The translations under genes were made by a program, and so were the position numbers. A stretch of DNA of 64,000 nt from Comamonadaceae bacterium OTU4NAUVB1 (GTDB lineage Bacteria; Pseudomonadota; Gammaproteobacteria; Burkholderiales; Burkholderiaceae_C): positions 62,001 to 126,000 of the forward strand of contig CP099604.1 of NCBI GenBank assembly GCA_024372625.1, written 5' to 3'. The notes beneath the pieces are model-generated. The model ran no database searches. It saw nothing but the letters and a program-made list of their open reading frames with translations, and was not told where the DNA came from. Position 1 is the first letter of the stretch, and each line of letters opens with the position of its first letter. This document shows positions 24,021-39,187 of the stretch, in pieces.

Positions 24021-24431
24021 GGCGAGGTTTCCTTTGTAAAAGCCCACTCTGGACACGTCGCTCCGGCCGCGATTGTCGGAGAGGGACTTCAAATCATGGC
24101 AGCCAGTCAGGAAGCGGCCGGTCGCCGCATTGCAAGCAATTGCATCGGCGCATTGCCCGTGGGCATTCCAATTGCCCCACGGACCGATGGGAAGCCCCAC
24201 TGCAATTGCGAATAAGGCCGCGCACATTGCAACATGGCGTCAGATGTTGATCCCGGTTAATCGGCAATCGAATTGGCGAGTGCTATTAGGCGGGAGTCAT
24301 TTCACGTGTCAGTCAATACAACAGTCTCTCGCGCCATTGGACGACATGGAAGCGACGACGCAGGAGACGAACTGAAGGCCGGTCGACACACCGATCCCAC
24401 CCATCCATCATCTTCATTGAAGGAGTCCACG
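24021..24431. promoter_or_regulatory. 411-bp divergent intergenic region with clustered ATTGC motifs
   Basis: This region between the DUF4142 and manganese catalase genes holds no gene. Between 24125 and 24300 it contains at least seven ATTGC/GCAAT elements, including two GCAATTGC palindromes and the octamer GGCAATTG read on the minus strand (24169-24176). CGGCAATCG near 24272 recurs upstream of the CsbD-like gene at 55 kb. Such clustering in the promoter region of two stress-type genes suggests a shared regulator. The AT-richer composition could also explain part of it. Confidence 0.4.
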
Positions 24432-25337
24432 ATGTTCTCTCACAACAAGCGTCTTCAATACACCTTGCGTGTCAGCGAGGCCAATCCCGGACTGGCCAAC
24501 CTCATGCTGGAGCAGTTCGGCGGACCGCAGGGCGAACTCGCCGCGGCGTGCCGCTATTTCACCCAGGCCATCGGCGAGGACGATCCCGGTCGCAAGGACA
24601 TGCTCTTCGACATCGCGACCGAGGAACTGAGCCACCTCGAGGTCATCGGCACGATGGTGGCGATGCTCAACAAGGGCGCGAAGGGCCGGCTGGCCGAGGG
24701 CGTCGATTCCGAGGCGGACATGTACCGCTCGATCACGGCCGCGGGCAACGACAGTCACGTGACGCAGGTTCTCTACGGGGGCGGACCGCCGCTGGTCAAT
24801 TCGGCGGGCGTTCCCTGGACCGCCGCGTACATCGACACCATCGGCGAGCCGACGGCCGACCTGCGCTCCAACATCGCGGCGGAGGCGCGCGCGAAGATCG
24901 TCTACGAGCGACTGATCAATTTGACGGACGATCCGGGCGTCAAGGACGCGCTCAACTTCCTCATGACGCGCGAGATTGCGCACCAGAAGTCGTTCGAGAA
25001 GGCGCTCTACGCCATCACCCCGAACTTCCCGCCGGGCAAGCTGCCGGGCAAGCCGGAGTTCACGAATGTCTACTTCGACATGTCCAAGGGCAACGACGTG
25101 AAGGGTCCGTGGAACGATGGCCCGGGCTGGGAGGTGGTCAGCGATCCCGAAGCGCAGATGGCGGTCGACGGCGGCGACGGCGTGGCGGCCGTGGGCCTGA
25201 CGTCGGCGGAGAAGGACGTGGTGCTCACCATGGCCGCGCGGACGGCGTCCGACGCGACCAGCAACCCCCGCACCGGCGCGGAACTGGGCATGTCGCCTGC
25301 CGACGCCCAGGCGGTCGGCGCGACGACCACGCGCTGA
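24432..25337 (+). CDS. manganese catalase
   Basis: The product has 301 residues and converts hydrogen peroxide to water and oxygen using a dinuclear manganese centre. The four-helix ferritin-like core is visible with the expected ligands: Glu35, Glu65, His68, Glu151 and His184, in the motifs GELAAACRYF, ATEELSHLE, AAEARAKIVYERL and TREIAHQKSF. Length matches Mn catalases of non-haem type (about 270-300). A strong ribosome site (GAAGGAG) precedes the ATG. No signal peptide, so cytoplasmic. A rho-independent terminator follows at 25386. The DUF4142 gene diverges from it and a Crp/Fnr gene follows. Confidence 0.94.
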   Translation: MFSHNKRLQYTLRVSEANPGLANLMLEQFGGPQGELAAACRYFTQAIGEDDPGRKDMLFDIATEELSHLEVIGTMVAMLNKGAKGRLAEGVDSEADMYRSITAAGNDSHVTQVLYGGGPPLVNSAGVPWTAAYIDTIGEPTADLRSNIAAEARAKIVYERLINLTDDPGVKDALNFLMTREIAHQKSFEKALYAITPNFPPGKLPGKPEFTNVYFDMSKGNDVKGPWNDGPGWEVVSDPEAQMAVDGGDGVAAVGLTSAEKDVVLTMAARTASDATSNPRTGAELGMSPADAQAVGATTTR

Positions 25338-25489: not shown

Positions 25490-26242
25490 ATGCTCCTGGC
25501 CAACGTCCTGAAGAACCGCGCTTCCGAACTGTCGTCCGCCGACCGGCACGTCCTGCAGGCGGCCATCCGGGAGACGCGGACGTTCGAGGCCGGGGAGACC
25601 GTCGTGCACCAGGGCCTCCCGGTGAACGTCAGCACGTTGCTGGTGGAAGGCTTCATGACGCGCCACGTCGATGCGCCCGATGGGCGGCGCCACCTGGTCG
25701 CGGTGCACGTGCCGGGCGACTTCGTGGACCTGCATGCCTATGCGCTCAAGCGGCTCGACCACGACGTCGGCGCCCTCACGGTCACGACGGCGGCGATCGT
25801 GCCGCATTCGGCGCTCAAGCGCATCCAAGAACTCGACGGCCGTCTGGCGCGGCGGCTGTGGTTCCTCACGCTGCTCGACGCGGCCATGCACCGGCAGTGG
25901 ATCTTCCGCCTCGCCAGCCTCAACGCGTCCGAACGCATCGCGCACTTCCTGTGCGAGATGAACGCCCGGCTGCTGGCGATCGGCCTGTCCGACGGCGAGT
26001 CGTTCTTCCTGCCGATGACGCAGTCCGACCTCGGGGAGGTCTGCGGCCTGACGAACGTCCACGTCAACCGCGTCCTGCGCGAATTGAGGGAGGCGGGGCT
26101 GTGCCAGCTGCGCTCCTCCCACGTGCGCATCACGGACCTGAAGGGACTGGTGGCGCGCGCCAGGTTCGACCCGAACTACCTCTACCTCAACGCGCGGACG
26201 ACGGCTCGCGCGGCGGGGGGCGCCGGCGATCCGGGCGCCTGA
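25490..26242 (+). CDS. Crp/Fnr family transcriptional regulator
   Basis: The product has 250 residues. A cyclic-nucleotide-type beta-roll sensor occupies about 15-130 (FEAGETVVHQGLPVNVSTLLVEGFMTR), followed by the dimer helix and a C-terminal winged helix at about 165-235 (MTQSDLGEVCGLTNVHVNRVLRELREAGL). There is no N-terminal cysteine cluster, so it is not an iron-sulfur FNR. It lies just after the catalase terminator and so has its own promoter. It is a reasonable candidate regulator of the catalase/DUF4142 pair; that is inference from position. Confidence 0.9.
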   Translation: MLLANVLKNRASELSSADRHVLQAAIRETRTFEAGETVVHQGLPVNVSTLLVEGFMTRHVDAPDGRRHLVAVHVPGDFVDLHAYALKRLDHDVGALTVTTAAIVPHSALKRIQELDGRLARRLWFLTLLDAAMHRQWIFRLASLNASERIAHFLCEMNARLLAIGLSDGESFFLPMTQSDLGEVCGLTNVHVNRVLRELREAGLCQLRSSHVRITDLKGLVARARFDPNYLYLNARTTARAAGGAGDPGA

Positions 26243-26260: not shown

Positions 26261-26962
26261 CTACAGGGAGGCCCCGCCGCAGATCACGAGTTCCTGCCCG
26301 GTGATCGCGGCGGCCGACGGCGACAGCAGGTAGGCCACGAGGTCGGCCACTTCCTGCGGCTGGACGTATCGGCCCATCGGCGGGAGCTTCGGTGGCGAGC
26401 TGGCGCGGCCGGGCTGCAGCAGCATCGGCGTCTCGGTGGCGCCCGGCGCCACCACGTTCACGGTGATGCCCCGGGGCGCGAGTTCCGCCGCCCAGCTGCG
26501 CGCCATGCCGACCATGGCGGCCTTGGTGGCGACGTACTGGCTGCGGCCCGCCGCGCCGCGCGAGGTGCGGCTGCCGATCAGCACGATGCGCCCGCCCGCG
26601 GCCATGCGCGGCGCGAAGGTGCCGGCGAGCAGTTCGCCGGTCGCGACATGGAGGTGCCACAGCCGGGCGCTGGCGAGCGGATCGAGCGCCCCCAGCGGCG
26701 CGGCGTGCATCATGCCGGCGGCATGCACCAGGGCATCGGGCACCGGCAGCCCCGCCAGACAGGCCGCGACCCGGTCGTGGTCCGCCAGGTCCACCCGGTG
26801 CCCCTGGAAGCGGTCGCCCAGGCCGTCCACCGCCGAGCGGCTCAGGCCGTCGACGCTCCAGCCGGCGTCCAGCAGCGTGCGGGCGATCGCGTGTCCGATG
26901 CCCGAACTCGCCCCGGTCACCAGCGCGCGGCGGGGTGCGGGGAGCGGTGCCGCCACGCTCAT
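26261..26962 (-). CDS. SDR family oxidoreductase, last gene of the acid-sugar operon
   Basis: The product has 233 residues. TGASSGIG is at 16-23, HAAG replaces NNAG, and the catalytic S...Y..K appears as LIGSRTSRGAAGRSQYVATK. It ends in the usual VAYLLSPSAAAITGQELVICGGASL. The start codon overlaps the stop of the sialidase-fold gene (ATGA at 26959-26962), so it is translationally coupled to it. The probable role is an NAD(P)-dependent oxidation or reduction of a pathway intermediate; the exact step is unknown. Confidence 0.87.
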   Translation of the reverse strand: MSVAAPLPAPRRALVTGASSGIGHAIARTLLDAGWSVDGLSRSAVDGLGDRFQGHRVDLADHDRVAACLAGLPVPDALVHAAGMMHAAPLGALDPLASARLWHLHVATGELLAGTFAPRMAAGGRIVLIGSRTSRGAAGRSQYVATKAAMVGMARSWAAELAPRGITVNVVAPGATETPMLLQPGRASSPPKLPPMGRYVQPQEVADLVAYLLSPSAAAITGQELVICGGASL

Positions 26963-28146
26963 GCCTTGGCCCAGGCTTCGTCCGCGACCACGTACTTGAT
27001 GGCCTGGCGGAAGTAGGTGTAGGACATGTGCAGGCGGCCGTCGGCGGACTGCTTGACGCTCGGGTAGGAGAACTCGCGGTTGAGCCTGGCCTCGGAGTTG
27101 TTGGTCATGCAGTAGCCGTCGCCCTCGTCGAGGTTGCGCCGCCACGGCCAGGTGCGCCCGCCGTCGGCTGAGATCGCCAGCGTCATCGGCGCGCGCGGGG
27201 CGCCCCAGAAGGCGGCGCGTTCGACGGCCGGCGCCTCGGTCAGCACGTTGGAGGCGTCGTTGTGGCGGTTCTCGTCCTCGATCTCGTCGTAGAGCGATTC
27301 GCGCCGCTCGGTGGCGTCGGCGGCGCTGCTGGCGTTGAAGATCAGCGCCAGGTCGCCGTTGGCGAGCGCCGTCAACTGGATCGAGGAATTGTTGTTGGGC
27401 AACTCGGTCGGCACCGACGCGGACCAGGTCTCGCCGTCGTCGCCGGAGCGGCTTTCATGAATGGCGTCGGCCCAGCGGCTGCGGAACAGCGCCAGCAGGG
27501 TGCCGTCGGCCAGTGGCGCGATGCTCATGTGCACGCAGCCGGTGCTGCCGGGGACGGGCACCTCGCGCCAGCTGCGGCCCCGGTCGTCGGACAGCTTCAC
27601 GGCGCTCACGTCGTGGTTGCCGCTCCACTTCTCGCCGGCCCGGGTGCGGCAGTAGTAGATCGGCAGCAGCCACCGGCCGCTGGCCGTGACCACCGGCGGC
27701 TGGCGCACGAAGGTGCCCGGCGTGGCGAACAGCGTGCCGATGTTGCCCCAGGTCCGGCCCAGGTCGGCGGACTGGCGGAACCGCACCACGGCCGTGTCCT
27801 GGTTGCCCGAGGCCTGCGCGGTCCAGATCAGCCAGAGCACGTCGTCGGCCAGGAAGAGGATCGGGTTCTGCTCGGAGCGGTCCGGGTCGTCCGAGAGCTG
27901 CACCGCCGGCGTCCACGCGGTGCCGCCGGCCGGCAGGCGCGACAGGAAGATCGAGATGTCGCCCACGCCTTCCTGGGTGCCCGCGAACCACACGCACAGC
28001 AGGTCGCCGTCGGGCAGCGGCAGCAGGTTGGAGGCATGGTTCTGCGGCCGGTCGGTGGGCAGCATCGCCTGCTGGCGGGCCGCGTCGTTCGGATGGGGGG
28101 CCAGGACGCCGTCGCGTCGCAGGCCTTCGGTGCTCGTCTCGGTCAT
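26959..28146 (-). CDS. sialidase-fold (BNR/Asp-box) protein, cytoplasmic
   Basis: The product has 395 residues forming a six-bladed beta-propeller. At least four Asp-box repeats (S-x-D-x-G-x-T-W) are visible: SADLGRTW, SDDRGRSW, SGDDGETW and SADGGRTW. There is no signal peptide, unlike secreted sialidases. Bacterial proteins of this type lie in sugar-acid clusters and may be hydrolases, lyases or epimerases rather than true exo-sialidases. Here it sits between a DapA-family aldolase and an SDR. It may release or rearrange a sugar acid inside the cell. Function is inference; the fold is confident. Confidence 0.82.
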   Translation of the reverse strand: MTETSTEGLRRDGVLAPHPNDAARQQAMLPTDRPQNHASNLLPLPDGDLLCVWFAGTQEGVGDISIFLSRLPAGGTAWTPAVQLSDDPDRSEQNPILFLADDVLWLIWTAQASGNQDTAVVRFRQSADLGRTWGNIGTLFATPGTFVRQPPVVTASGRWLLPIYYCRTRAGEKWSGNHDVSAVKLSDDRGRSWREVPVPGSTGCVHMSIAPLADGTLLALFRSRWADAIHESRSGDDGETWSASVPTELPNNNSSIQLTALANGDLALIFNASSAADATERRESLYDEIEDENRHNDASNVLTEAPAVERAAFWGAPRAPMTLAISADGGRTWPWRRNLDEGDGYCMTNNSEARLNREFSYPSVKQSADGRLHMSYTYFRQAIKYVVADEAWAKA

Positions 28147-28178
28147 GTTCGTTCTCCAGGGCGTCGGATCGGTCGTGC

Positions 28179-29069
28179 TCAGGGCTGGATCGCGCAGTCG
28201 CGCAGCACTTGGCGGATGGCCTCGTCCTGCTCGGCCGACAGGCGCACCGGGTACTTGCTGTTGCCCACGTCAAAGCCCAGCAGGCGCACCGCGCGCTTGA
28301 CGGCCGCCGGCGCGAAGGCGACCTTGTAGAGCGATTCGCGCAGGCGCGTCACGGCCTCCTGGGCCTGCCGCGAGCCGGCGATGTCGCCGGCCTGGAAGCG
28401 CCGCCAGACGGCGTTGATCTCGCGCGGCGCGACGTTGGCCAGCCCCGAGACGGCGCCCGCGCAGCCCTCGACGAAGCCCTGGTGGATCAGGCTGTCGGGA
28501 CCGTTGAAGACCACGAAGTCCTCGGCTTGGCGCGCGGCGTCGATGAAGCCCTTGAGGCTCTCGTAGGTGCCGGCGCTGTCCTTGATGCCGACGATGCGGG
28601 GGTGGGCCGCCAGGCGCCGCGTGGTCTCCGGGGCGATCGTGTTGCCGGTGCGCGCCGGGATGTTGTAGAGGTAGACCGGCACGTCCAATGCGTCCGCCAC
28701 GGCCGTGAAATGCCAGACCAGGTCGTCCTGGGAGAGCGGCACGAAGTTGGGCGTGATGGCGGCGACCGCGTCCACGCCCATGGCCGCGATGCGCCGACCC
28801 ATGCGGATGCACTCGGCCGTGGAGTTCTCGCCCACGTGGCCGACCACCGGTGCGCGCCCGCGCACCTGGTCGACCGTGGCCTCGGCCACGGCCAGCCGCT
28901 CCGACTCCGTGAGGGCGAAGAACTCGCCGTTGGTGCCGCCGCAGAAGATGCCGTTGCCCGCGGCGAGCTGGCGCTCGACCTGCTCGCGGAAGGACTTCTC
29001 GTGGAAACGGTCGTCGGCGTCGACGGGCGTCACGATGGCGGTCAGCACGCCTTCGATCTTCTTGGACAT
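28179..29069 (-). CDS. DapA/N-acetylneuraminate lyase superfamily aldolase
   Basis: The product has 296 residues forming a TIM barrel that makes a Schiff base with a 2-keto acid. Lys163 (VGIKDSAGT) is the Schiff-base lysine and Tyr135 (YNIPARTG) the acid/base residue. The carboxylate-binding motif reads GGTNGEF (44-50), where lysine-biosynthetic DapA has GTTGE, so it is more likely a catabolic 2-keto-sugar-acid aldolase or dehydratase. It lies in the operon with a kinase, PdxA2-type enzyme and sialidase-fold protein. Gene names such as dapA would mislead; left unnamed. Confidence 0.88.
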   Translation of the reverse strand: MSKKIEGVLTAIVTPVDADDRFHEKSFREQVERQLAAGNGIFCGGTNGEFFALTESERLAVAEATVDQVRGRAPVVGHVGENSTAECIRMGRRIAAMGVDAVAAITPNFVPLSQDDLVWHFTAVADALDVPVYLYNIPARTGNTIAPETTRRLAAHPRIVGIKDSAGTYESLKGFIDAARQAEDFVVFNGPDSLIHQGFVEGCAGAVSGLANVAPREINAVWRRFQAGDIAGSRQAQEAVTRLRESLYKVAFAPAAVKRAVRLLGFDVGNSKYPVRLSAEQDEAIRQVLRDCAIQP

Positions 29070-29118
29070 GGGTGCGCTCCTTGGGATGCGTGGGTGGGAG
29101 GTGGCGGAGGAAACGTTA

Positions 29119-29146
29119 GGCGGTCAGGCGGTCAGGCGGTCAGGCG
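29119..29146. repeat. 8-bp tandem repeat, three copies, overlapping a stop codon
   Basis: GGCGGTCA is repeated exactly three times (29119-29142), followed by a partial copy. On the minus strand each copy holds a TGA, and because the period is 8 the three TGAs fall in all three reading frames, the first being the stop of the iron-type alcohol dehydrogenase gene. It therefore works as a three-frame stop. Slippage is the likely origin. Confidence 0.9.
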
Positions 29147-30279
29147 AACAGCTGGCGGTAGACCGCCTCGATGTCGGGCGCGGCGACCGGGCCGGGCACG
29201 TTCTTGATGAGGCGCTGGACGTCCAGCGCGCCCTGCACCAGCGTGGGCAGGTGGTCCGGGGCGATGCCCAGTTCCTGCAGGCTGGTGGGCAGCGCGAGGC
29301 GCTTCACCAGTGCGGCGAAGTACGCCACCAGCGCGTGCGACTTGGCCTCGGCGTCCAGGCCGGTGTCGACGCCGGGCAGCAGGTCGTGGACGCGGGCGAG
29401 CTTGTCGACCGCCATCGGCCGCACGAACGCGAAGCACGGCGCCAGCAGGATCGCGTTGGCCACGCCGTGGGCGATGTGGTACTTGCCCCCCAGCGGGTAG
29501 GACATGGCGTGGACCAGGTGCGTGCCGGCGTGGGCGATGCAGGCGCCGCCGTGGTAGGAGGCCCAGAGCATGTCGAGCTTCGCCTGCAGGTTGTCCGGCT
29601 CGGCGACCGACACCTCGAGGCTGGCGAACAGCTTCTTCAGGCCGATCATGGCGTGGTCCTCGCACACCGGATTGGCGATGTTCGAGGTGAAGCACTCGAT
29701 CAGGTGGCACAGCGCGTCCACCCCCGTGGAGGCGGCGATGCGGTGCGGCATCGAGGTGGTCAGCTCCGGCGCCAGCACCACGAAATCGGGCAGCAGCACC
29801 GGCGAGATGACGCCGACCTTGGTCTCGCGCGCCGGGATGGCGAGGATGGCGTTGGGCGTGGCCTCCGAGCCGGTACCGGCGGTGGTGGGCACCAGCATCG
29901 AGGCGACGCGGCGGGTCACCTTGACGGCGCCGGCGAGCAGGTCCTCGAGCGAGGGGGAGTCCGGCGCGGCGAGCGCCGACAGCAGCTTGGCCACGTCGAG
30001 CACGCTGCCGCCGCCCACGCCGATCACCAGGTCCACGCCTTCGACGCGGTGGTCGCGCAGGATGGCGCGCACGTCCTCGTCGCTGGGCTCGGGCGGCACC
30101 GAATCGATCACCTGGACCTCGGCGGCCAGGGCGCGCACCTGCCGCAGCAGGCGCTGCACGCCGTCGATGCGCACGATGTTGGCGTCGCTCACGAAGAGCA
30201 CGCGCTGCCGGCCGCGAATCAGGTAGGCGATGTCGTCGAGGACACCGACGCCCGCGAGGACGGTGCTGTGGATGTGCAT
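29140..30279 (-). CDS. iron-containing alcohol dehydrogenase family protein
   Basis: The product has 379 residues. NAD-binding GVGGGSVLDVAK is at about 87-98 and the second family signature PTTAGTGSEATP at 131-142. Metal ligands look intact: Asp188, His192, His257 and His271 (TGVDALCH, GTHLVHAMSYPLG and HIAHGVANA). It oxidises or reduces a hydroxy/keto group of a pathway intermediate, or could act like a maleylacetate-reductase type enzyme. Third gene in the leftward operon, after the PdxA2-type gene by 31 bp. An 8-bp tandem repeat overlaps its stop. Confidence 0.92.
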   Translation of the reverse strand: MHIHSTVLAGVGVLDDIAYLIRGRQRVLFVSDANIVRIDGVQRLLRQVRALAAEVQVIDSVPPEPSDEDVRAILRDHRVEGVDLVIGVGGGSVLDVAKLLSALAAPDSPSLEDLLAGAVKVTRRVASMLVPTTAGTGSEATPNAILAIPARETKVGVISPVLLPDFVVLAPELTTSMPHRIAASTGVDALCHLIECFTSNIANPVCEDHAMIGLKKLFASLEVSVAEPDNLQAKLDMLWASYHGGACIAHAGTHLVHAMSYPLGGKYHIAHGVANAILLAPCFAFVRPMAVDKLARVHDLLPGVDTGLDAEAKSHALVAYFAALVKRLALPTSLQELGIAPDHLPTLVQGALDVQRLIKNVPGPVAAPDIEAVYRQLFA

Positions 30280-30310
30280 GGGGAAAGGCTCCGGGAAGTG
30301 GGAAAGGGGA

Positions 30311-31309
30311 TCAGCGGCGGGTGGCGAGTTCGGCGCCCTGGCGCAGGGCCTCGATCAGGCTGCGCTCGTCGGCGATGCCCTTGCCCGCGATGTCGAACGC
30401 CGTGCCGTGGTCGACCGAGGTGCGGATCACGTCCAGGCCCACGGTGATGTTCACGCCCGCCTCCAGGCCCATCACCTTGACCGGGCCGTGGCCCTGGTCG
30501 TGGTACATCGCCACCACCAGGTCGAAGTCGCCCCGGCCGGCGCGGAAGAACAGGGTGTCGGCGGGCAGCGGGCCCTCGATGTTCAGGCCCCGGGCGCGCA
30601 GCACCTCGATGGCGGGGACGATCTTCTCCTCTTCCTCGCCATAGCCGAACAGCCCGTTCTCGCCGGCGTGGGGGTTGATGCCGCAGACGGCGATGCGCGG
30701 GTTCTCGATCTTCGCCTTGCGCAGGGTCTCGTAGCCGCGCTCGATGGTGCGCTGCACCAGGCCGGGCTCGATCCGGCGGATCGCGTCGATGATGCCGATG
30801 TGGGTCGTGACGTGGATCACGCGCAGGTTGGGCGCCACCAGCATCATCGAGACCTCCTCGACGCCGGTCAGGTGGGCCAGCATCTCGGTGTGGCCGGGGA
30901 ACTTGTGGCCGCCCGCGTGCAGCGCTTCCTTGTTGAGCGGCGCGGTGCAGATCGCGTCGATCCGGCCGTCCTTGGCCAGCTCGACCGCGCGCTCGATGAA
31001 GCGGAAGGCCGCGTCGCCCGCCACGGCGGACAGCTTGCCGAACGGCAGGTCGTCGGGGATCAGCCCGAGGTCGAAGCAGTCGATGACGCCCTGCTCGAAG
31101 CGGGCTTCCTCCATCGAAGCGATGGGGCGCACGCGCACGTCCAGGCGCAGCAGCGCGGCGGCCTTGCGCAGGCGGCCGGCGTCGCCCACGACCACCGCGC
31201 GCGCGAGGGTGGCGAGGTCGTGGCGGGCGAAGCTCTTGACGATGATCTCCGGGCCGATGCCGGTGGCATCGCCCATGGTGATGCCGATGACGGGGACGTA
31301 AGCGCTCAT
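30311..31309 (-). CDS. pdxA2: PdxA2-type 4-phospho-sugar-acid dehydrogenase (PdxA family)
   Basis: The product has 332 residues of the PdxA family: ITMGDATGIGPEI opening, metal-binding histidines in FPGHTEMLA, HVTTHIG and YHDQGHGPVK, and INPHAGENGLFG. The family oxidises and decarboxylates 4-phospho-hydroxy acids. PdxA proper makes pyridoxal phosphate, but PdxA2 proteins next to DUF1537 kinases convert D-threonate or D-erythronate 4-phosphate to dihydroxyacetone phosphate and CO2. The DUF1537 kinase is directly upstream (23 bp), so the catabolic role is much more likely. Symbol given for the subgroup, not a proven substrate. Confidence 0.9.
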   Translation of the reverse strand: MSAYVPVIGITMGDATGIGPEIIVKSFARHDLATLARAVVVGDAGRLRKAAALLRLDVRVRPIASMEEARFEQGVIDCFDLGLIPDDLPFGKLSAVAGDAAFRFIERAVELAKDGRIDAICTAPLNKEALHAGGHKFPGHTEMLAHLTGVEEVSMMLVAPNLRVIHVTTHIGIIDAIRRIEPGLVQRTIERGYETLRKAKIENPRIAVCGINPHAGENGLFGYGEEEEKIVPAIEVLRARGLNIEGPLPADTLFFRAGRGDFDLVVAMYHDQGHGPVKVMGLEAGVNITVGLDVIRTSVDHGTAFDIAGKGIADERSLIEALRQGAELATRR

Positions 31310-31332
31310 GGTGGTCTTTCGAACGGTGTAAT

Positions 31333-32610
31333 TCAGGAAGGGGCGGACCCGGCGCGGGCCAGGTGCGCGCGGAGGGCCTGGCGCGCCCGCTCGAGCGAGG
31401 CGTCGTCACCGAAGGCGCCCGCCTTGGTGGCGACGAACCGGCGGTGGGGGCCCAGCTCGCGCAGCAGCACCACGCCCGGCTCGCTTTCGCCCAGCACCTG
31501 GAGCCGGGCGATGCCGAGCCGTCCCAGCATGATGCGCGCGGTCTCGCCGCCGGTGAGGACCAGCCCCCCGGACTCGCGCATTGCGGGCGCCAGATGCAGC
31601 GCCAGGTGGCGCGCCAGCCGGGGACCCTCGGCCGGGTCGAGCACGGCGTCCGCACCAATCCAGACCACCGGTTCCAGGCCGCGCGCCAGGTCGGCGCGGA
31701 CCGCCTCGGCCCAGGGCGCCGGCGTCGCGCCGGCCACCGGCGGGGTCCGTAGCAGGTCGGCGCCGATGGCGTGGGCGGACGAGCCGGGCCGCGCGCGCAG
31801 GCAGCCGATCTGCCGCTCGGCGACGGGCGACAGGCTGCCAACCACCGTCAGCAGACCGCATCTTGCCAAGCCTGGCTCCCAGGCGTCGTCGACGGGCGCC
31901 GATCGGGACGCGGGCGTGGGCAGGGGCGGGACGCGGCGCGCGAGTTCGCGCGCAAGGCCCGCCGAGGCGACCCAGAACACGTCCGGCAGGTCCAGCGTCG
32001 CGGCCGCGAGCGCATGCAGGTGCGCGGCGTGCCCGGTGTCGAACACCAGCGCCTGGCGACCCGCCTCGCGCGCCTGGGTGATGTGTCGCCGCAGCGCGTC
32101 GGGCGGACCCTCCAGCAGGACCACCGGAACGAGCCCGGTGCGCAGGCCGGCGGCCTCCAGCAGGTGCGCCGGGCGGGCCTCGCGGTCCGCATGCTCCAAC
32201 CGCCAGGTGGCGGTCTCCGCCAGGGGCGTGCCGTCGACGTGGACGAGGCCGCCGCGCACGGTGCGTCCCAGGTCGGGAAAGGCTGGTGCGACCAGCGCCA
32301 GGCCGAGCGCAGGCTGCAGCGCCGCGACCTCCGCCGCCCAGCCGCCGCGCAGGGTGGAATCGATCTTCTTCACGACGCGGCGGCCCGCGCCGTGTCGGGC
32401 CAGCGTCGCGCGCGCCTTGTCGGCCGCCACGGTGGCGACGTCGCGCCGGCTGTCGGTGTCCACCGTCACAACCGCCGCCGACGGCGTGGGCGCCCCGGCA
32501 TCGCCGTCGCCGAGCAGGACGGCGCCGTCGAAGCCGGCCGCGACGAACCCAGCGGCGCAGTCGGCGGCCCCGGAGAGATCGTCCGCGATGATGAGGAACG
32601 CGTGGGTCAC
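31333..32610 (-). CDS. four-carbon acid sugar kinase (DUF1537 family)
   Basis: The product has 425 residues from the GTG at 32610. The N-terminal substrate domain opens with FLIIADDLSGAADCAAGF and contains TDSR and KKIDSTLRGG; the C-terminal nucleotide-binding domain has LVLTGGETARIMLGRLG. DUF1537 proteins phosphorylate D-threonate, D-erythronate or 3-oxo-tetronates at C4. Together with the PdxA2-type gene it forms the core of that pathway. An ATG at 32697 would add 29 residues that lie over the operator palindromes and are not conserved, so I prefer the GTG. It is the first gene of the operon, preceded by three operator-like palindromes. Confidence 0.9.
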   Translation of the reverse strand: MTHAFLIIADDLSGAADCAAGFVAAGFDGAVLLGDGDAGAPTPSAAVVTVDTDSRRDVATVAADKARATLARHGAGRRVVKKIDSTLRGGWAAEVAALQPALGLALVAPAFPDLGRTVRGGLVHVDGTPLAETATWRLEHADREARPAHLLEAAGLRTGLVPVVLLEGPPDALRRHITQAREAGRQALVFDTGHAAHLHALAAATLDLPDVFWVASAGLARELARRVPPLPTPASRSAPVDDAWEPGLARCGLLTVVGSLSPVAERQIGCLRARPGSSAHAIGADLLRTPPVAGATPAPWAEAVRADLARGLEPVVWIGADAVLDPAEGPRLARHLALHLAPAMRESGGLVLTGGETARIMLGRLGIARLQVLGESEPGVVLLRELGPHRRFVATKAGAFGDDASLERARQALRAHLARAGSAPS

Positions 32611-32619
32611 GGTGTCGGT

Positions 32620-32697
32620 TGATCGGGCCGATCGACGAATGTCTGATGCAAGCCTTATTTGATTGAATCGATCATACATTACGACTGAATCGATCAT
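32620..32697. promoter_or_regulatory. three operator-like palindromes before the acid-sugar operon
   Basis: Three 15-bp elements are visible: TGATTGAATCGATCA (32661-32675), CGACTGAATCGATCA (32683-32697) and TGATCGGGCCGATCG (32620-32634). Arms are TGATyGA/TCrATCA around one central base. Centres are 41 and 22 bp apart, about four and two helical turns, so the sites face the same side of the DNA. The same motif occurs in three copies at 33979-34055 before the Bug and DeoR genes. The natural reader is the DeoR protein at 34171. Confidence 0.7.
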
Positions 32698-32858
32698 TGT
32701 TGGGGTTTGTACGAGGCAGCGGACTTATCGCCGGCCGGTTCGATCGGCGGGCATGGATCGCGGGTTCCTGTCGGCGCCACGCCGTGCGAACAAGCCGGAA
32801 ACCCGGCCGCTTCGTTGGTCACGCGTAGGCGCCCGGACTGTGCGTCCGGGATGCCGCG

Positions 32859-33851
32859 TCACAGCTTGATGTCGGCTTCCGTCACGATCTTCTGGTACTT
32901 GTCCGTCTCGGCCTTCTGGAACTTGACGAAGGCGTCGACCGACTGCGGCTCGAGCTCCAGGCCCTGGGCGGCGAACTTGGCCATCGCCTCGGACTTGAGG
33001 GCGAGGTTCACCTCCTTGTTGAGGCGCGTCACGATGGCCGTGGGGGTGCCGGCGGGCGCCCACAGACCGTACCAGCTGAAGAACTCGAAGCCGGGCAGGG
33101 TGTCGGCCACGGTCGGGACGTCGGGCAGCGACGCGACGCGGCCCTTCGCCGTGGTGGCGATCACCTTGAGCATGCCCGACTTGTGGTACTGCAGCGAGCC
33201 TAGCACCGGGTCGATGAAGGCGTCGATCTGCCCGCCGATCAGGTCCTGGAATGCCGGCGCCGTGCCCTTGTAGGGAACGATCAGCGCGTTGATGCCGGCC
33301 GTGCGCTTGAGCTGCTCGGTCGAGAGGTGGCCGGCCGAGGCGATCGAGCCGACCGCGAAGGTCATCTTCCCGGGGTTGGCCTTTGCGTACTGGACCATGC
33401 CCGCGAGGTCGTTGAACGGCAGGTTCTTGTTCACCGCCACCGACAGCGGCGCCTTGGCCACCAGCGCGATCGGCTGGAAGTCCTTCTCGATCTTGTAGGG
33501 CGCCGCGCTGGAGATCATCGGCCCGCTCAGAAACGTCGAGGCGTTGAACAGCAGCGTGTAGCCGTCCGCCGGAGCGCGCGCCACGGCGCCGGCGCCGATG
33601 GTCGCGTTGCCGCCCGGACGGTTGTCCACGATGACCGGCTGGCCGAGCTGCTCGGACAGGCGCTGCGCCAAGGTGCGGCCGACGGCGTCGAGCGTGCCGC
33701 CGGGCGGAAACGGGATGATGACCCGGATCGTCTGCGCGGGATAGGCCTCGGCGGCGGTCGCGAACGGCGCGGCCGAGCCGAAGGCGGCGGCCAGGGCGAA
33801 CTGCAGGCCGGCCGACAGGAGGCGGCGCTTCGATGAACGGTGTGAGGTCAT
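32859..33851 (-). CDS. Bug/TctC family tripartite tricarboxylate receptor
   Basis: The product has 330 residues. A basic N-terminus and hydrophobic core form a signal peptide cleaved near residue 35. The mature start, YPAQTIRVIIPFPPGGTLDAVGR, is the standard Bug opening, followed by GQPVIVDNRPGG and, near residue 205, VPYKGTAPAFQDLIGGQIDAF. It is a periplasmic two-lobed receptor for carboxylate-type ligands. There is no TctA/TctB nearby, so it must share a membrane partner or act only as a sensor. It is divergent from the DeoR gene and shares operator-like palindromes with it, so its ligand is probably the acid sugar of this cluster. Confidence 0.93.
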   Translation of the reverse strand: MTSHRSSKRRLLSAGLQFALAAAFGSAAPFATAAEAYPAQTIRVIIPFPPGGTLDAVGRTLAQRLSEQLGQPVIVDNRPGGNATIGAGAVARAPADGYTLLFNASTFLSGPMISSAAPYKIEKDFQPIALVAKAPLSVAVNKNLPFNDLAGMVQYAKANPGKMTFAVGSIASAGHLSTEQLKRTAGINALIVPYKGTAPAFQDLIGGQIDAFIDPVLGSLQYHKSGMLKVIATTAKGRVASLPDVPTVADTLPGFEFFSWYGLWAPAGTPTAIVTRLNKEVNLALKSEAMAKFAAQGLELEPQSVDAFVKFQKAETDKYQKIVTEADIKL

Positions 33852-33978
33852 GGTGAAGGGGCGGGGTAGGGACGTTGGGAGCCGTTGCGCCAGGGGAGGG
33901 TCCGGGCACCGGAAGCGTTCGCGGTCAGGCCGCGTCTCACGGATCGGTCACGAACGGCAAGCATTCAGGACCCATCAA

Positions 33979-34055
33979 TGATTGCATCGATCAGATCATG
34001 ATCTGTTCAATCAAAAAATCGGTAGTTTCCCTTCGTCCGTTGATCGAACCGATGA
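33979..34055. promoter_or_regulatory. three operator-like palindromes between the Bug and DeoR genes
   Basis: TGATTGCATCGATCA (33979-33993), TGATCTGTTCAATCA (33999-34013) and TGATCGAACCGATGA (34041-34055) match the palindrome seen before the kinase gene. Centres are 20 and 42 bp apart, the mirror image of the 41 and 22 bp spacing at the operon promoter. The region (33852-34170) is AT-rich and serves two divergent genes. A DeoR tetramer or looped complex could bridge such sites. Confidence 0.7.
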
Positions 34056-34170
34056 AAATGCACGATCGCCGGACCGTTGCAATGCCATCGCCAGCTCAGC
34101 CGCGACAATCGCGCGACCGGCGTTCGATTCCGCCGTGCACACCTTCTTCTCCTTCCGGAACATTCGAAGC

Positions 34171-34953
34171 ATGAAAGTCGCCAACCGTCGCGAGGCCATC
34201 CTGGACGCCGTCCACCAGGGAATTTCCGACCTCACCTCGCTGTGCGAGAAGTTCGGCGTCTCCGAGGCCACGGCGCGGCGCGACCTGCACGTGCTGCAGC
34301 AGGAGGGCCGCCTGCTGCGGACCTACGGCGGGGCGGTGGCCCATCCGATCCAGCACGAGCCGGAGGAATCCCTGGAATCCCGCCAGTCGCAGCACCATGC
34401 GGCCAAGACGGAGATCGCCCGGCGGGCGGCGCGCCTCGTGCGCGAGGGCGACACGGTTTTCATCGACGCCGGCACCACGACCCAGTGCTTCGCGCGCGAA
34501 CTGGCGGCCGAGACCCGTGCCCAGGTCTTCACCAACAACCTGCTGGTGGTGCAGGGCCTGGCTGCGCGCGGCATGGCGGTGTCGCTGCTCGGCGGCGACC
34601 TGCGCGCGGGCAGCATGAGCGTCTTCGGGCCGCTGGCCGACCTGTCGCTGGAACGGCTGACCTTCGACAAGGTCTTCACCAGCGCCGACGGCGTCGATGC
34701 GGAACTCGGACTGTGCGAGGGCTCGGCCGAACAGGCCTGGTTCAAGGAGAAGGTGTTCCGCCGGGCGCGGCAGGTCGTGGTGCTCGCCACCGCCGAGAAG
34801 CTCAGCCGCCGCTCCCAGATGTACTGGACGCCCATGAACCGGGCCTGGACCCTGGTCACCGACGCCCCGCCGCAGCACCACCCGCTGCAGCCCTTCGTGG
34901 ATCACGTGCTGATCGAGGTGCTGCCGGGTCCGGCGTCGGGCGAGGGCCGCTAG
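34171..34953 (+). CDS. DeoR/GlpR family transcriptional regulator
   Basis: The product has 260 residues. The DeoR helix-turn-helix is at about 4-55 (RREAILDAVHQGISDLTSLCEKFGVSEATARRDLHVLQQEGRLLRTYGGA). The C-terminal sensor is an ISOCOT-type domain with DTVFIDAGTTTQCFA and TNNLLVVQGL, which bind phosphorylated sugar ligands in this family. A phosphorylated four-carbon acid made by the DUF1537 kinase is therefore a sensible inducer. It diverges from the Bug gene, and matching palindromes occur in both nearby promoters. Expected to repress the cluster in absence of ligand. Confidence 0.93.
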   Translation: MKVANRREAILDAVHQGISDLTSLCEKFGVSEATARRDLHVLQQEGRLLRTYGGAVAHPIQHEPEESLESRQSQHHAAKTEIARRAARLVREGDTVFIDAGTTTQCFARELAAETRAQVFTNNLLVVQGLAARGMAVSLLGGDLRAGSMSVFGPLADLSLERLTFDKVFTSADGVDAELGLCEGSAEQAWFKEKVFRRARQVVVLATAEKLSRRSQMYWTPMNRAWTLVTDAPPQHHPLQPFVDHVLIEVLPGPASGEGR

Positions 34954-36234: not shown

Positions 36235-36483
36235 CGCCTTGACACCTTGCCAGCGCGGCGAAGCGGTGCTTCCCGGACCGGGCATGTGGATTGCTCCCAC
36301 GGGACCCGGGCATGGGTCGCCTCAACGACGGGGACGACGGTACGACGCAGAAGGCGGTCAAAAGCGCCCCCGGGTCTGCAAACCTTGCGGCCTTTCTTGC
36401 CGATCGCTCCGCCGCGGCCCGGACGGTCGCGACGGCTGCGGCCGGGCTTTGGCGCCAGGGTCTTCCTGGCAGAAGGGAATTCG

Positions 36484-37260
36484 GTGGCCGACATGACGCA
36501 TCCGTTGCCCGGAACGGGTCCCGCTGCGAGGCAGCCACCTCCCGGCCTTGCTGCGACCGGGGCGTCCCCGGCGTGGACCGCCAACCGCCTGCTCGCCGGC
36601 CTGGCGCCCGAAGACGTCGCGCGCTGGTCGCCGCACCTGCGGGCCCTGGACCTGCCGGCGGGCCACGTGCTCGTGGCGCCGCGCGGGAAACCCCGGCATG
36701 TCTACTTTCCGACCACGGCGATCGTCTCGCTGGTCCATGTCCAGGAGGACGGCTCGACGGTGGAGGTCGCGGTGACGGGCCGGGAAGGGTTCGTCGGCGT
36801 GCCGGTCGTCACGGGCGGCGACGTCATGCCCTACCAGGCACTCATGCAGACGCCGGGGCAGGTGTGGCAGCTGCCCGTGGAACTGCTCAGGGCCGAAGTC
36901 GCGCGTGGCGGCCCGGTGCTGCGTCACCTGCTGCTGTTCGTGCAGGCGCTCTTCACCCAGGTCTCGCAGACGGCCGTGTGCAACCGGCATCACTCGCTGG
37001 AGCAGCACCTGTGCCGCTGGTTGCTCCTGATGTTCGACCGGCTCGACGACCGGCAGCTCGCCATGACCCAGGAAGCGATCTCCACGATGCTGGGCGTGCG
37101 TCGCGAGACCGTGACCGAGGCGGCCGGCGCGCTCCAGGCCGCGGGCCTGATCCGCTACGCGCGCGGGCGCATCGACCTCGTCGACCGCCGGGGGCTGGAG
37201 GGCAGGGCGTGCGAGTGCCATGCCTTCGTCGCGCAGGAGTACCGGCGGCTGCTGGGTTGA
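36484..37260 (+). CDS. Crp/Fnr family transcriptional regulator
   Basis: The product has 258 residues from the GTG at 36484, which has AGAAGGG 7-8 bases upstream; an ATG at 36493 is the alternative. A beta-roll sensor (about 30-150; HVYFPTTAIVSLVHVQEDGSTVEVAVTGREGFVG) is followed by a winged helix (QEAISTMLGVRRETVTEAAGALQAAGLI). The YFP(T/E)...GREG(F/M)VG style is that of a large group of Burkholderiales regulators that bind no known cyclic nucleotide. No conserved cysteine cluster. Target genes unknown; it is monocistronic and convergent with 37350. Confidence 0.87.
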   Translation: MADMTHPLPGTGPAARQPPPGLAATGASPAWTANRLLAGLAPEDVARWSPHLRALDLPAGHVLVAPRGKPRHVYFPTTAIVSLVHVQEDGSTVEVAVTGREGFVGVPVVTGGDVMPYQALMQTPGQVWQLPVELLRAEVARGGPVLRHLLLFVQALFTQVSQTAVCNRHHSLEQHLCRWLLLMFDRLDDRQLAMTQEAISTMLGVRRETVTEAAGALQAAGLIRYARGRIDLVDRRGLEGRACECHAFVAQEYRRLLG

Positions 37261-37349: not shown

Positions 37350-38222
37350 TCAGGCCGCGAACCGCTGCCCGCGCGCCATCAGCTCCGGCGTGCCGATGAC
37401 TTCGTTCAGTCCGTCGAAATCGAGCATCTCGGCCTGCAGCGGCGAGGTCGTGCCGTTCGAATGCAGGCTCGCGAAGTAGCGCTGCAGCTGCGCCGCCACG
37501 AAGCGCGCGGTGCCGCCGGGGAAGATGACGATCCGGAAGCCCCGCGCCCCGAGGGCCTCGGCGCTCTGCACCGGGCTCTTGCCGCCTTCCACCATGTTCG
37601 CCAGCATCGGCAGGTGCGGCGCGAAGCGCGCGCAGGCCGCGTCCATGTCGGCCTCGTTGCGCAAGGCCTCGATGAAGAGGGCGTCGACGCCGCACCGGCG
37701 GTACGCCTCGGCCCGCTCGAAGGCCGCGTCCAGCCCTTCGATTGCCACCGCGTCGGTGCGCGCCAGGATCAGGGTCCGGTCGGACCGGCGGGCATCGAGC
37801 GCGGCCTTCAGCTTGCCGCACATCTCGGCGACCGGCACCAGCGTCTTGCCGTCGAGGTGGCCGCAGCGCTTGGGAAAGTCCTGGTCCTCGAGCTGGATCA
37901 TGGCCGCGCCCGCCGCCTCGAAGCCGCGCACCGTGCGCTGCACGTTGAGTGCGTTGCCATAGCCGGTGTCGCCGTCGACGATCACCGGGATCGACACCCG
38001 GTCGGTGATGCGTGCCAGCACGTCGGTGGTCTCGCTGGCCGTGGTCAGCCCGACGTCGGAGCGGCCCAGCTGCGAATAGGCGACGGCGCCGCCCGAGAGG
38101 TAGAGGGCCTCGAAGCCGGCCTGCTCCGCCAGGAGCGCGGTGAGCGCGTCGTACACGCCGGGCGCCAGCAGGGGGCGCGGCTGCGCGAGCCGTTCGCGCA
38201 GCGCCATGCGGGGGGCGCTCAT
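37350..38222 (-). CDS. isocitrate lyase / PEP mutase superfamily C-C lyase
   Basis: The product has 290 residues. DGDTGYG at 83-89 holds the metal-binding aspartates and KRCGH at 118-122 the catalytic cysteine found in isocitrate, 2-methylisocitrate and 2,3-dimethylmalate lyases (PEP mutases lack it). So it cleaves a C-C bond of a hydroxy-dicarboxylate, or a related acid, releasing pyruvate, glyoxylate or succinate type products. Overlaps the Bug gene by 4 bp (ATGA) and is the last gene of the dioxygenase operon. Not prpB by context, as no methylcitrate genes are near. Confidence 0.88.
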   Translation of the reverse strand: MSAPRMALRERLAQPRPLLAPGVYDALTALLAEQAGFEALYLSGGAVAYSQLGRSDVGLTTASETTDVLARITDRVSIPVIVDGDTGYGNALNVQRTVRGFEAAGAAMIQLEDQDFPKRCGHLDGKTLVPVAEMCGKLKAALDARRSDRTLILARTDAVAIEGLDAAFERAEAYRRCGVDALFIEALRNEADMDAACARFAPHLPMLANMVEGGKSPVQSAEALGARGFRIVIFPGGTARFVAAQLQRYFASLHSNGTTSPLQAEMLDFDGLNEVIGTPELMARGQRFAA

Positions 38223-39187
38223 TCGGGCTTCGCCCCGGTCGCGGCCACGACCTTGCCCCAGCGCACGATCTCCGCGGCGACGAACTGCTGGAACTCGGCC
38301 GGCGTGCTGCCCACCGGCACCAGGCCTTCGTCGGCGAGGCGCCGGGCCATCTCGGGCGAGGCGAGCGCGGCGCGCGCGGCGCCGGCGAGCCGGTCGACCA
38401 GCTCCCTGGGCATCCTCGCCGGACCGAACAGGCCGTACCAGGAGTTGTATTCGTAGCCCGGCAGCACCTCGGAGATCGCCGGCACGTCGGGGTACGCGGG
38501 CAGGCGCCGGGGACTGGTCACGGCCAGCGCCTTGAGGCGCCCGCCCTTGATCAGCGACTGCACCGTGGCCACGCCCGCGAACACCAGGTCGATCTGCCCG
38601 GCCACCACGTCCTGGATCGCCGGGCCGGTGCCCTTGTAGGGCACGCCGACGATGTCGATGCCGGCGTCGCGCCGGAGCATCTCGCCCGCGAGGTGGTTGG
38701 CCGAGCCGATCCCGGCCACCGCCACGTTGAGCTTGCCGGGCTGCGCCTTCGCCAGCGCGATCAGTTCGACCACGTTGGTGGCCTTGAACGACGGGCGGGC
38801 CACCAGCATCGCGGGCGAACTCGCGATCTGGCTGATGGGCGTGAAGTCCTTGACGGGGTCGAAGGGCAGGCTGTCGTAGAGGGAGGCGTTGATCGCGTGG
38901 CTGGTGTAGCTCAGCAGCAGCGTCTGTCCGTCGGGCTCGGCCTTGGCCGTGGCCAGCGCGGCGATGTTGCCCGCCGCGCCGGGGCGGTTGTCGACGATGA
39001 ACGGCCGGTCCAGCCGCCGGCCGAGTTCGAGGGCGATGGCCCGCGCGACGATGTCGGTGCCGCCGCCGGGCGTGGCGCCGACCAGCAGCCGGGTGGCCTG
39101 CGGCTGGGCCGCCGCCGTGCCGAGCATCGTCAGCCCGCCGGGCAGGACCAGCGCGTTCGCCAGCGCGAGGAGTCCACGCCGGTTCAT
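38219..39187 (-). CDS. Bug/TctC family receptor, dioxygenase operon
   Basis: The product has 322 residues. Signal peptide about 1-27 (MNRRGLLALANALVLPGG...AAAQ). The mature domain has the Bug pattern: RLLVGATPGGGTDIVAR, DRPFIVDNRPGAAGNIA and GVPYKGTGPAIQDVVAGQIDLVFAG. It recognises a carboxylate in the periplasm. The gene overlaps both neighbours by ATGA junctions, so receptor, dioxygenase and lyase are made together, and its ligand is probably the operon's substrate. No TctA/B in the window. Confidence 0.92.
   Translation of the reverse strand: MNRRGLLALANALVLPGGLTMLGTAAAQPQATRLLVGATPGGGTDIVARAIALELGRRLDRPFIVDNRPGAAGNIAALATAKAEPDGQTLLLSYTSHAINASLYDSLPFDPVKDFTPISQIASSPAMLVARPSFKATNVVELIALAKAQPGKLNVAVAGIGSANHLAGEMLRRDAGIDIVGVPYKGTGPAIQDVVAGQIDLVFAGVATVQSLIKGGRLKALAVTSPRRLPAYPDVPAISEVLPGYEYNSWYGLFGPARMPRELVDRLAGAARAALASPEMARRLADEGLVPVGSTPAEFQQFVAAEIVRWGKVVAATGAKPE

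Follow-up and report, generated by a model that had tools for sequence, protein, structure and literature searches.

The four-carbon (C4) sugar acids D-threonate and D-erythronate are broken down by a kinase, DtnK or DenK, together with PdxA2, and passages of PMC10971088 place both kinases in family DUF1537. Here we analysed a 64,000-nt stretch of Comamonadaceae bacterium OTU4NAUVB1 (CP099604.1; hereafter the window, to which coordinates refer unless another locus is named). A locus at 26261-34953 combines a DUF1537 kinase and PdxA2 with a DapA-type pyruvate aldolase, an iron-type alcohol dehydrogenase (Fe-ADH) and a BNR_2 propeller with a predicted sialidase fold (the BNR protein). The founding DUF1537 papers date from 2016. 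The kinase and PdxA2 are common to the described system and to this locus, but here the aldolase, Fe-ADH and sialidase-fold protein are added upstream of them, and the tetronate would accordingly be an intracellular product, not an imported one.

The D-glucarate/galactarate route, with the aldolase GarL, the semialdehyde reductase GarR and the kinase GarK, cuts a 2-keto-3-deoxy dicarboxylate to pyruvate and a semialdehyde acid, which is then reduced and phosphorylated. By analogy, the plan proposed here would be the same, one carbon longer and with a sialic-acid-like top, the DapA-type aldolase, Fe-ADH and DUF1537/PdxA2 replacing GarL, GarR and GarK. The locus also resembles sialic acid (nan) catabolism in its sialidase fold, its aldolase of the NanA superfamily and, in many related loci, a NanQ-like YhcH. 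It differs from nan catabolism in a changed propeller residue and a C4 acid end, and neither NanK nor NanE was seen in the annotated clusters examined.

A further likeness is to the GH143 enzyme BT1020 of Bacteroides thetaiotaomicron, a sialidase-like enzyme that releases 3-deoxy-D-lyxo-hept-2-ulosaric acid (Dha); passages of PMC6811678 call its fold slightly different from other sialidases, 'five-fold', whereas the BNR protein models as GH33-type. The same gene set was described as region GR6 of Escherichia coli BEN2908, where a grouping of sialidase, dapA and adh in Sinorhizobium meliloti is also noted; the passages in question interpret the kinase/PdxA2 pair as vitamin B6-related and propose no catabolic pathway or substrate (PMC12928451). 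The first-pass annotation of this DNA knew of no described pathway with exactly this combination. That agrees with the literature searched, in which we found neither Dha catabolism nor a pathway with this gene set (subscription papers were mostly outside the search, and absence from print is not established by it), but the grouping itself had already been noticed in print.

A putative route for a seven-carbon sugar acid

The gene set recurs as a group in distantly related bacteria, many of them from plants or guts, and has the look of a full, previously undescribed pathway for a seven-carbon (C7) acidic sugar. We propose uptake and linear catabolism of a C7 2-keto-3-deoxy dicarboxylic sugar acid, a mechanism in which we infer every reaction from sequence and to which we give an even chance. 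In the window a Bug-type receptor would serve in uptake of the acid, a task that falls to SSS, DASS/SLC13, MFS or ABC systems in other loci, and a ketosidase-like BNR protein would free or prepare it on entry. The aldolase, of a type marked by the motif GTNGE, would then yield pyruvate and the C4 semialdehyde acid threuronate, and Fe-ADH, working in the presumed reductive direction, would convert the aldehyde to D-threonate. The kinase would form D-threonate 4-phosphate, from which PdxA2 would give dihydroxyacetone phosphate (DHAP) by oxidation and decarboxylation. The family assignments bear out the earlier description of an acid-sugar catabolic locus ending in DHAP, and the suggestion that the substrate is larger than a C4 acid is likewise supported.

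Distribution and conservation of the gene cluster

The grouping of these genes is real and beyond chance. A genome scan for the BNR protein gave 134 pattern matches and 118 confirmed relatives, of which the best 80 (57-89% identity) were retained and span Pseudomonadota, Bacillota and actinobacteria. They are mostly from Enterobacterales, with others in Pasteurellaceae, Gilliamella, Comamonas, Methylobacterium, Telmatospirillum, Bacilli, Lucifera and Rhodococcus/Mycolicibacterium. Locus counts refer to these 80 loci, which are not de-duplicated (L024 and L025, for example, are two contigs of one strain), and a family was counted as present if its match covers at least 60% of the query. For GC-rich loci the analysis relied on open reading frames backed by homology or a family scan. 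By this measure all 80 loci have BNR, 63 a short-chain dehydrogenase/reductase (SDR), 61 each PdxA, DUF1537 and an SSS transporter, 59 the aldolase, 58 Fe-ADH, 46 YhcH, eight a DASS carrier and five an HpaI-type aldolase. The five core families (BNR, DapA-type aldolase, Fe-ADH, PdxA and DUF1537) occur together within about 10 kb in 53 of the 80, or in 54 if any significant match is allowed, the additional locus (L039) contributing only a DUF1537 fragment. Annotated records of Caballeronia, Azospirillum, Agrobacterium, Rhizobium, Paracoccus and Methylobacterium show the core grouping as well.

Among the 27 incomplete loci, three (L007, L010 and L059) are cut by contig or locus ends, three (L022, L039 and L056) have no full DUF1537, 13 are Pantoea loci with SSS-BNR-(YhcH)-SDR only, and five are actinobacterial, with an HpaI-type aldolase and without Fe-ADH; Bacillus swezeyi (L058), Metabacillus (L075) and Telmatospirillum (L078) are also among them. 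In the split Pantoea genomes other core genes lie at a second locus: an aldolase orthologue (74-77% to E. coli 536) with Fe-ADH adjoining and DUF1537 about 2 kb off was found in 12/12 searched (of 13). B. swezeyi and Metabacillus are split too, with PdxA at the second locus and an aldolase 37-38% identical to that of E. coli 536, which brings the total to 14/15, Telmatospirillum being the exception. The earlier claim that Fe-ADH, aldolase and propeller belong with DUF1537/PdxA2 is thus strongly upheld by co-occurrence, the criterion by which the first-pass annotation would have had it refuted, given the 53 complete BNR loci and the 12 split Pantoea genomes.

Plasmid records contain BNR relatives in 299 of 72,556 cases. 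Among 5426 complete E. coli genomes the cluster is matched in 1044, and in 1043 of these over at least 80% of a 6-kb query from L014. In E. coli 536 (L087) the cluster lies between nagE and glnS, which adjoin in K-12 (L171), where the site is empty. In a sample of 300 Burkholderiales genomes the BNR protein was found in two, the source genome itself and G248, where the match is 34% over 253 residues. Neighbourhood statistics for that order could therefore not be obtained, and because the protein is so rare there, the window copy of the locus looks acquired. The window aldolase is 60-67% identical to its enterobacterial orthologues (41 loci) and the BNR protein 63-68% (55 loci).

Erwiniaceae were profiled separately. 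Of 149 genomes, 12 have BNR, 18 the aldolase orthologue and 11 both (hypergeometric 2.6e-11, kinship ignored). In the lone BNR genome without an aldolase orthologue, G342, the BNR frame is shortened and pieces of a DtnK-like gene lie about 4 kb from it, which looks like a decaying copy of the cluster (contig C1, about 2745383-2751317). Seven of the 18 aldolase-bearing genomes are without BNR; all seven have Fe-ADH beside the aldolase and a DtnK over its cut-off, and in five the kinase is linked to the aldolase with PdxA adjacent. Because aldolase, Fe-ADH and D-threonate kinase persist there without the sialidase protein, the core looks linear. The aldolase is followed in each of the seven by genes for a D-2-hydroxyacid dehydrogenase and an MFS transporter, and the MFS copies scanned are nearest to D-galactonate transporters, under cut-off. 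This pair adjoins the core in L141-L148 and L150, and also in six Erwinia/Pantoea loci that carry SSS-BNR besides (L010, L046, L047, L053, L059 and L065). It suggests a second entrance, for a 2-hydroxy acid, and we read the whole as one core with two alternative entrances, SSS-BNR and D-2-hydroxyacid dehydrogenase-MFS.

The aldolase

The aldolase (28179-29069, minus strand; 296 aa, DHDPS 210.9 bits) bears GTNGE, as first reported. Lys161, Tyr133 and Arg138 of E. coli DapA are conserved in it, while Thr45 is replaced by Asn and Tyr107 by Phe. We aligned 103 sequences: 98 matches (not de-duplicated and including unlinked paralogues), the window protein and four E. coli K-12 references. In 85 of them Thr44, Asn45, Phe107, Tyr133 and Lys161 are shared along with a basic position 138 (Arg in 79, Lys in six). 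Position 138 is Arg in E. coli DapA and Leu in E. coli NanA, YagE and YjhH. In DapA this Arg binds the carboxylate group of aspartate semialdehyde, a four-carbon compound. The basic residue would fit a C4 semialdehyde acid as the aldolase product.

A thinned tree of 61 rows groups the 45 GTNGE rows together (100/97) and separates them from DapA, NanA and YagE/YjhH. The group of YagE and YjhH (100/100) is its neighbour on a weak branch (90/31), and five alphaproteobacterial TT/ST rows without the basic residue form a separate clade; several of the reference branches in this tree are long. Lysine-pathway DapA was considered for the window protein and rejected, because the score to TIGR00674 (190.1) is under the cut-off of 206.15 and because Asn45 and Phe107 replace Thr45 and Tyr107; a Paenibacillus relative passes (235.1). 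The scores to NanA families are also under the cut-offs (TIGR00683, 114.8 against 382; NF003164, 135.3 against 281).

GarL and HpaI are aldolases of C6 and C7 keto-dicarboxylates. All five actinobacterial loci gave tblastn matches to an actinobacterial aldolase; the one scanned against families (L086) is nearest to GarL and HpaI, under both cut-offs, a further likeness to the D-glucarate/galactarate route. Three aldolase types stand beside the same BNR, kinase and PdxA: the GTNGE clade, the alphaproteobacterial TT/ST clade and the actinobacterial HpaI/GarL type. Recruitment of all three to this place suggests that a pyruvate-aldolase reaction is required in the pathway.

Kinase, PdxA2 and Fe-ADH

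The window kinase (31333-32610, minus; 425 aa, GTG start) belongs to DUF1537, with 133.5 bits to SBD_N (gathering threshold 25) and 67.5 to NBD_C (28.3). Its best NCBIfam relative is the D-threonate kinase DtnK (NF047819), at 115.9. PdxA2 (30311-31309, minus; 332 aa) is a member of PF04166 (362.5 bits against 27) and is proposed to be a D-threonate-4-phosphate dehydrogenase giving DHAP and CO2. The E. coli 536 orthologues pass both D-threonate cut-offs (kinase 534.8 against 450; PdxA2 678.4 against 583), as do those of Pantoea G300 (526.9 and 651.8). After its nearest entry in the PDB, the next relatives of the window PdxA2 are 2hi1 and 6e85 (PdxA 2, D-threonate 4-phosphate dehydrogenase) at 294-295 bits, followed by 1ps7/1ptm (PdxA) at 201. 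Genome-wide there are four matches to the DUF1537 N-domain and two to PdxA, so the PdxA2 of the locus is not the sole PdxA. In Caballeronia sp. SBC2 a single 2307-bp gene annotated pdxA (L089, 6046-8352) replaces kinase and PdxA, an apparent fusion.

Fe-ADH (29140-30279, minus; 379 aa, Fe-ADH and ADH_Fe_C domains) is the proposed C4 semialdehyde-acid reductase. Its best NCBIfam family is 4-hydroxybutyrate dehydrogenase (NF058672), at 204.7 and under the cut-off of 500, which would also fit a C4 semialdehyde acid.

Sialidase-fold protein, SDR and uptake

The BNR protein (26959-28146, minus; 395 aa) is the putative ketosidase-like entry enzyme for a 2-keto-3-deoxy sugar acid. No signal peptide was apparent in it by eye. 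It models as a GH33-type domain, and the model has the fold of a sialidase catalytic domain. In a profile alignment to NanC, His206 occupies the position of the Glu that we take to be catalytic in NanC, and it is invariant in 35 of 35 relatives. Arg222 aligns with the NanC Arg after that Glu; only this His206/Arg222 stretch was aligned by the tool. Tyr361 and Arg318 are also invariant among the relatives, and may match the Tyr nucleophile and a member of the Arg triad of sialidases. There is a weak profile match to 5mqr (E 0.027 over 67 positions), which we take to be BT1020, the GH143 Dha hydrolase; 5MQR is not among the 50 structural matches listed for the model, which excludes nothing.

The SDR (26261-26962, minus; 233 aa, adh_short_C2 120.7 bits) seems to be an optional partner of the BNR protein: no match was found in the Escherichia/Klebsiella loci L014, L036, L037 and L043 or in E. 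coli 536. A TerC-family membrane protein lies between aldolase and BNR in L087 (10700-11458), L014, L027, L036, L037 and L043 (Escherichia, Pseudocitrobacter and Klebsiella), and no SDR match was seen there. For uptake, the window has a Bug/TctC solute-binding receptor (32859-33851, minus; 330 aa, TctC 205.6 bits), a likely uptake component, with a 75% identical counterpart in the same place in Comamonas sp. BIGb0124 (L008). In E. coli 536 the carrier is annotated SLC13, though it scores under the DASS cut-off.

Dha as a possible substrate

Dha, a rare sugar of plant cell walls, is the candidate substrate that fits best. We suggest tentatively, and as something still rather doubtful, that the locus is a catabolic pathway for Dha, with the BNR protein as a cytoplasmic Dha ketosidase. 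Dha would be cleaved to pyruvate and threuronate, and threuronate would pass through D-threonate and D-threonate 4-phosphate to DHAP and CO2; the D-2-hydroxyacid dehydrogenase and D-galactonate-type MFS transporter would form the second entrance, for a reduced form of Dha. By bookkeeping over the eight stereoisomers of 3-deoxyhept-2-ulosarate, pyruvate-aldolase cleavage and aldehyde reduction give a tetronate, and only the D-lyxo and D-xylo forms yield D-threonate (by the Fischer rules). This two-in-eight match is modest evidence for Dha, which is the D-lyxo form and, in passages of PMC6353982, a side-chain sugar of rhamnogalacturonan-II, a plant pectin. In Bacteroides it is released by GH143, and passages of PMC6811678 describe it as an analogue of sialic acid with seven carbons. 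The sialidase-like entry enzyme, the NanQ-like YhcH, carriers of organic-acid type and the plant or gut sources of many hosts fit such a substrate.

If correct, this would explain where the D-threonate for DtnK/PdxA2 comes from, and why the cluster is shared among gut E. coli, Gilliamella (bee gut), Lonepinella (koala gut) and plant-associated Pantoea, Erwinia, Rhizobium and Methylobacterium. Its genes are now annotated as pieces of vitamin B6, sialidase and lysine pathways; with a specific substrate and an order of steps, several names that mislead could be replaced and a common metabolic island of E. coli would gain a function. It would also fill a gap, as no printed catabolic route for Dha was found in the literature searched. 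Two other substrates were considered and set aside: 3-deoxy-D-manno-oct-2-ulosonic acid (Kdo), whose aldol cleavage gives arabinose and no tetronate acid, and ascorbate-derived L-threonate, which does not need a pyruvate aldolase.

Several observations weigh against the C7 route ending in D-threonate. The window kinase and PdxA2 are below the D-threonate cut-offs (115.9 against 450 for DtnK; 334.5 against 583 for NF002891), the kinases of Lucifera, Bacillus swezeyi and Metabacillus also miss theirs, and so do the PdxA2 proteins of Paenibacillus, Lucifera, Mycolicibacterium and Rhizobium, so the assignment to D-threonate leans on the enterobacterial relatives. The nearest PDB entry to the window PdxA2 is 4jqp (575.6 bits), which carries the general name 4-hydroxythreonine-4-phosphate dehydrogenase. 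The window Fe-ADH scores almost as high against lactaldehyde reductase as against its best family (196.7 and 204.7 bits), and that of E. coli 536 is closer to ErcA and lactaldehyde reductase. No Fe-ADH was found in the five actinobacterial loci; an unlinked one is present in all five genomes, but the family also matches 13 of 14 control genomes. Position 138 is V, M or L in the alphaproteobacterial aldolases of TT/ST type. A full DUF1537 is lacking beside the other four core families in L022, L039 and L056 (Pantoea stewartii, P. ananatis and Actinobacillus), P. ananatis retaining only a short piece; in annotated records P. stewartii shows no kinase and Roseomonas only a nucleotide-binding-domain piece. 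The Telmatospirillum metagenome-assembled genome yields only aldolase-family matches of 31-34%, none near a DUF1537 gene. Lastly, this route does not account for the SDR or for the D-2-hydroxyacid dehydrogenase that adjoins some cores.

Alternative explanations

The first-pass annotation had suggested a larger substrate, for example a sugar-acid conjugate that is processed to a C4 acid in the cell. With such a conjugate as the core logic of the locus, the propeller would release a tetronate for DUF1537/PdxA2 and a 2-keto-3-deoxy sugar for the aldolase, and Fe-ADH would remove the C2 or C3 aldehyde (glycolaldehyde, lactaldehyde) left by the aldolase. The predicted glycosidase fold of the BNR protein, the closeness of Fe-ADH to lactaldehyde reductase and the presence of 2-keto-3-deoxy-aldonate aldolases such as YagE in the DapA superfamily agree with this. 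However, aldolase, Fe-ADH and DtnK are kept without BNR in 7 of 18 aldolase-bearing Erwiniaceae, so that an origin of the C4 acid from the aldolase and Fe-ADH steps is the better reading, and the basic residue 138 is unlike YagE, YjhH and NanA. The conjugate reading is probably wrong, and we regard it as unlikely. A variant that keeps the C7 logic, in which the window kinase and PdxA2 use L-threonate or an erythronate and the pathway starts from another 3-deoxyheptulosarate or a related keto-diacid, draws on the low score of the window kinase to DtnK and on the six of eight stereoisomers that give tetronates other than D-threonate. Enterobacterial orthologues of the window aldolase and BNR protein nevertheless come from clusters in which the kinases tested (E. 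coli 536 and G300) score above the DtnK cut-off, which suggests one substrate for the family and leaves this variant a minority chance.

Salvage of vitamin B6, in which DUF1537 and PdxA2 would recycle 4-hydroxythreonine-type compounds to pyridoxal phosphate, was suggested for the E. coli BEN2908 copy in passages of PMC12928451. The score of the window PdxA2 to the general pdxA family is above the cut-off (365.7 against 290.35), and the name of 4jqp points the same way. We consider B6 salvage very unlikely, as it gives no reason for the aldolase, Fe-ADH, propeller and transporters to accompany the pair, the genome holds another PdxA, and, 4jqp aside, PDB entries for PdxA2/D-threonate-4-phosphate dehydrogenase score about 92 bits above PdxA. 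It is highly improbable that the propeller is a true sialidase in a pathway for a sialic-acid-like nonulosonate: the sialidase Glu aligns with the invariant His206, the nanA cut-off is far from reached (114.8 against 382), the annotated clusters showed no gene of NanK/NanE type, and a DUF1537/PdxA2 end is unsuited to a C6 amino sugar product.

Gene order and a candidate operator

The locus is a real, conserved catabolic unit and probably co-regulated. All eight open reading frames of the earlier description (a leftward six-gene run, a Bug receptor and a divergent DeoR) are present, and Pfam agrees with the families named for them (adh_short_C2, BNR_2, DHDPS, Fe-ADH, PdxA, SBD_N+NBD_C, which equals DUF1537, TctC, and HTH_DeoR+DeoRC). 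Gaps of 23, 31, 70, 32 and -4 bp separate the genes of the six-gene run, which is spaced as in an operon; the Bug gene lies 248 bp upstream of it. The divergent DeoR/GlpR-type regulator (34171-34953, plus) has HTH_DeoR and DeoRC domains (47.6 and 136.8 bits; 34171-34950). Two start sites were revised. For the SDR, 27145 was given up for 26962 as the likeliest start, which overlaps the BNR stop by 4 bp. For DeoR, 33982 gave way to the likelier ATG at 34171 (MKVANRREA...), because the aligned Comamonas L008 protein has its ATG at MKVANRRDA.

The pattern TGATTGNNNCGATCA has 16 matches in the window on both strands with at most two mismatches, against a shuffled mean of 2.8, and ten of them, at six sites, fall between 32620 and 34055. 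Exact matches (15 bp) occur only twice in the 4,655,332-base genome, before the DUF1537-SDR operon (TGATTGAATCGATCA, 32660-32674, plus) and between Bug and DeoR (TGATTGCATCGATCA, 33979-33993, plus). Weaker matches accompany the former at 32620-32634 and 32682-32696 and the latter at 33999-34013. With one mismatch allowed the genome has 23 matches, and a backward-pattern control none. In Comamonas L008 the pattern matches 12 times, the corresponding mean being 1.5; its two exact sites lie upstream of Bug and just upstream of DUF1537 (at 5459), the latter an identical 15-mer to TGATTGAATCGATCA. We suspect that DeoR acts at this putative operator to regulate the two leftward transcription units, and Bug, the six genes and DeoR form a candidate regulon tied by the motif.

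Neighbouring genes

In seven Pantoea loci (L012, L018, L019, L020, L023, L030 and L038) a GH28 polygalacturonase-like gene (426.9 bits against the PglB cut-off of 600) starts 3.3-7 kb upstream of BNR, before SSS-BNR-SDR; as all seven are Pantoea, the association amounts to one event at best. Six of the seven have a tartrate dehydrogenase (572.5 against 470.4) and a LysR regulator nearby, and this dehydrogenase was found to have no place in the proposed pathway. In the window, a manganese catalase gene (24273-25334, plus) adjoins the locus, and Crp/Fnr-type regulators flank it on both sides (25490-26239 and 36247-37257, both plus). Beyond these, at 37350-40305 (minus), lies a second small catabolic-looking set, with a phosphoenolpyruvate mutase/isocitrate-lyase-like enzyme, another TctC receptor and a TauD/TfdA dioxygenase.

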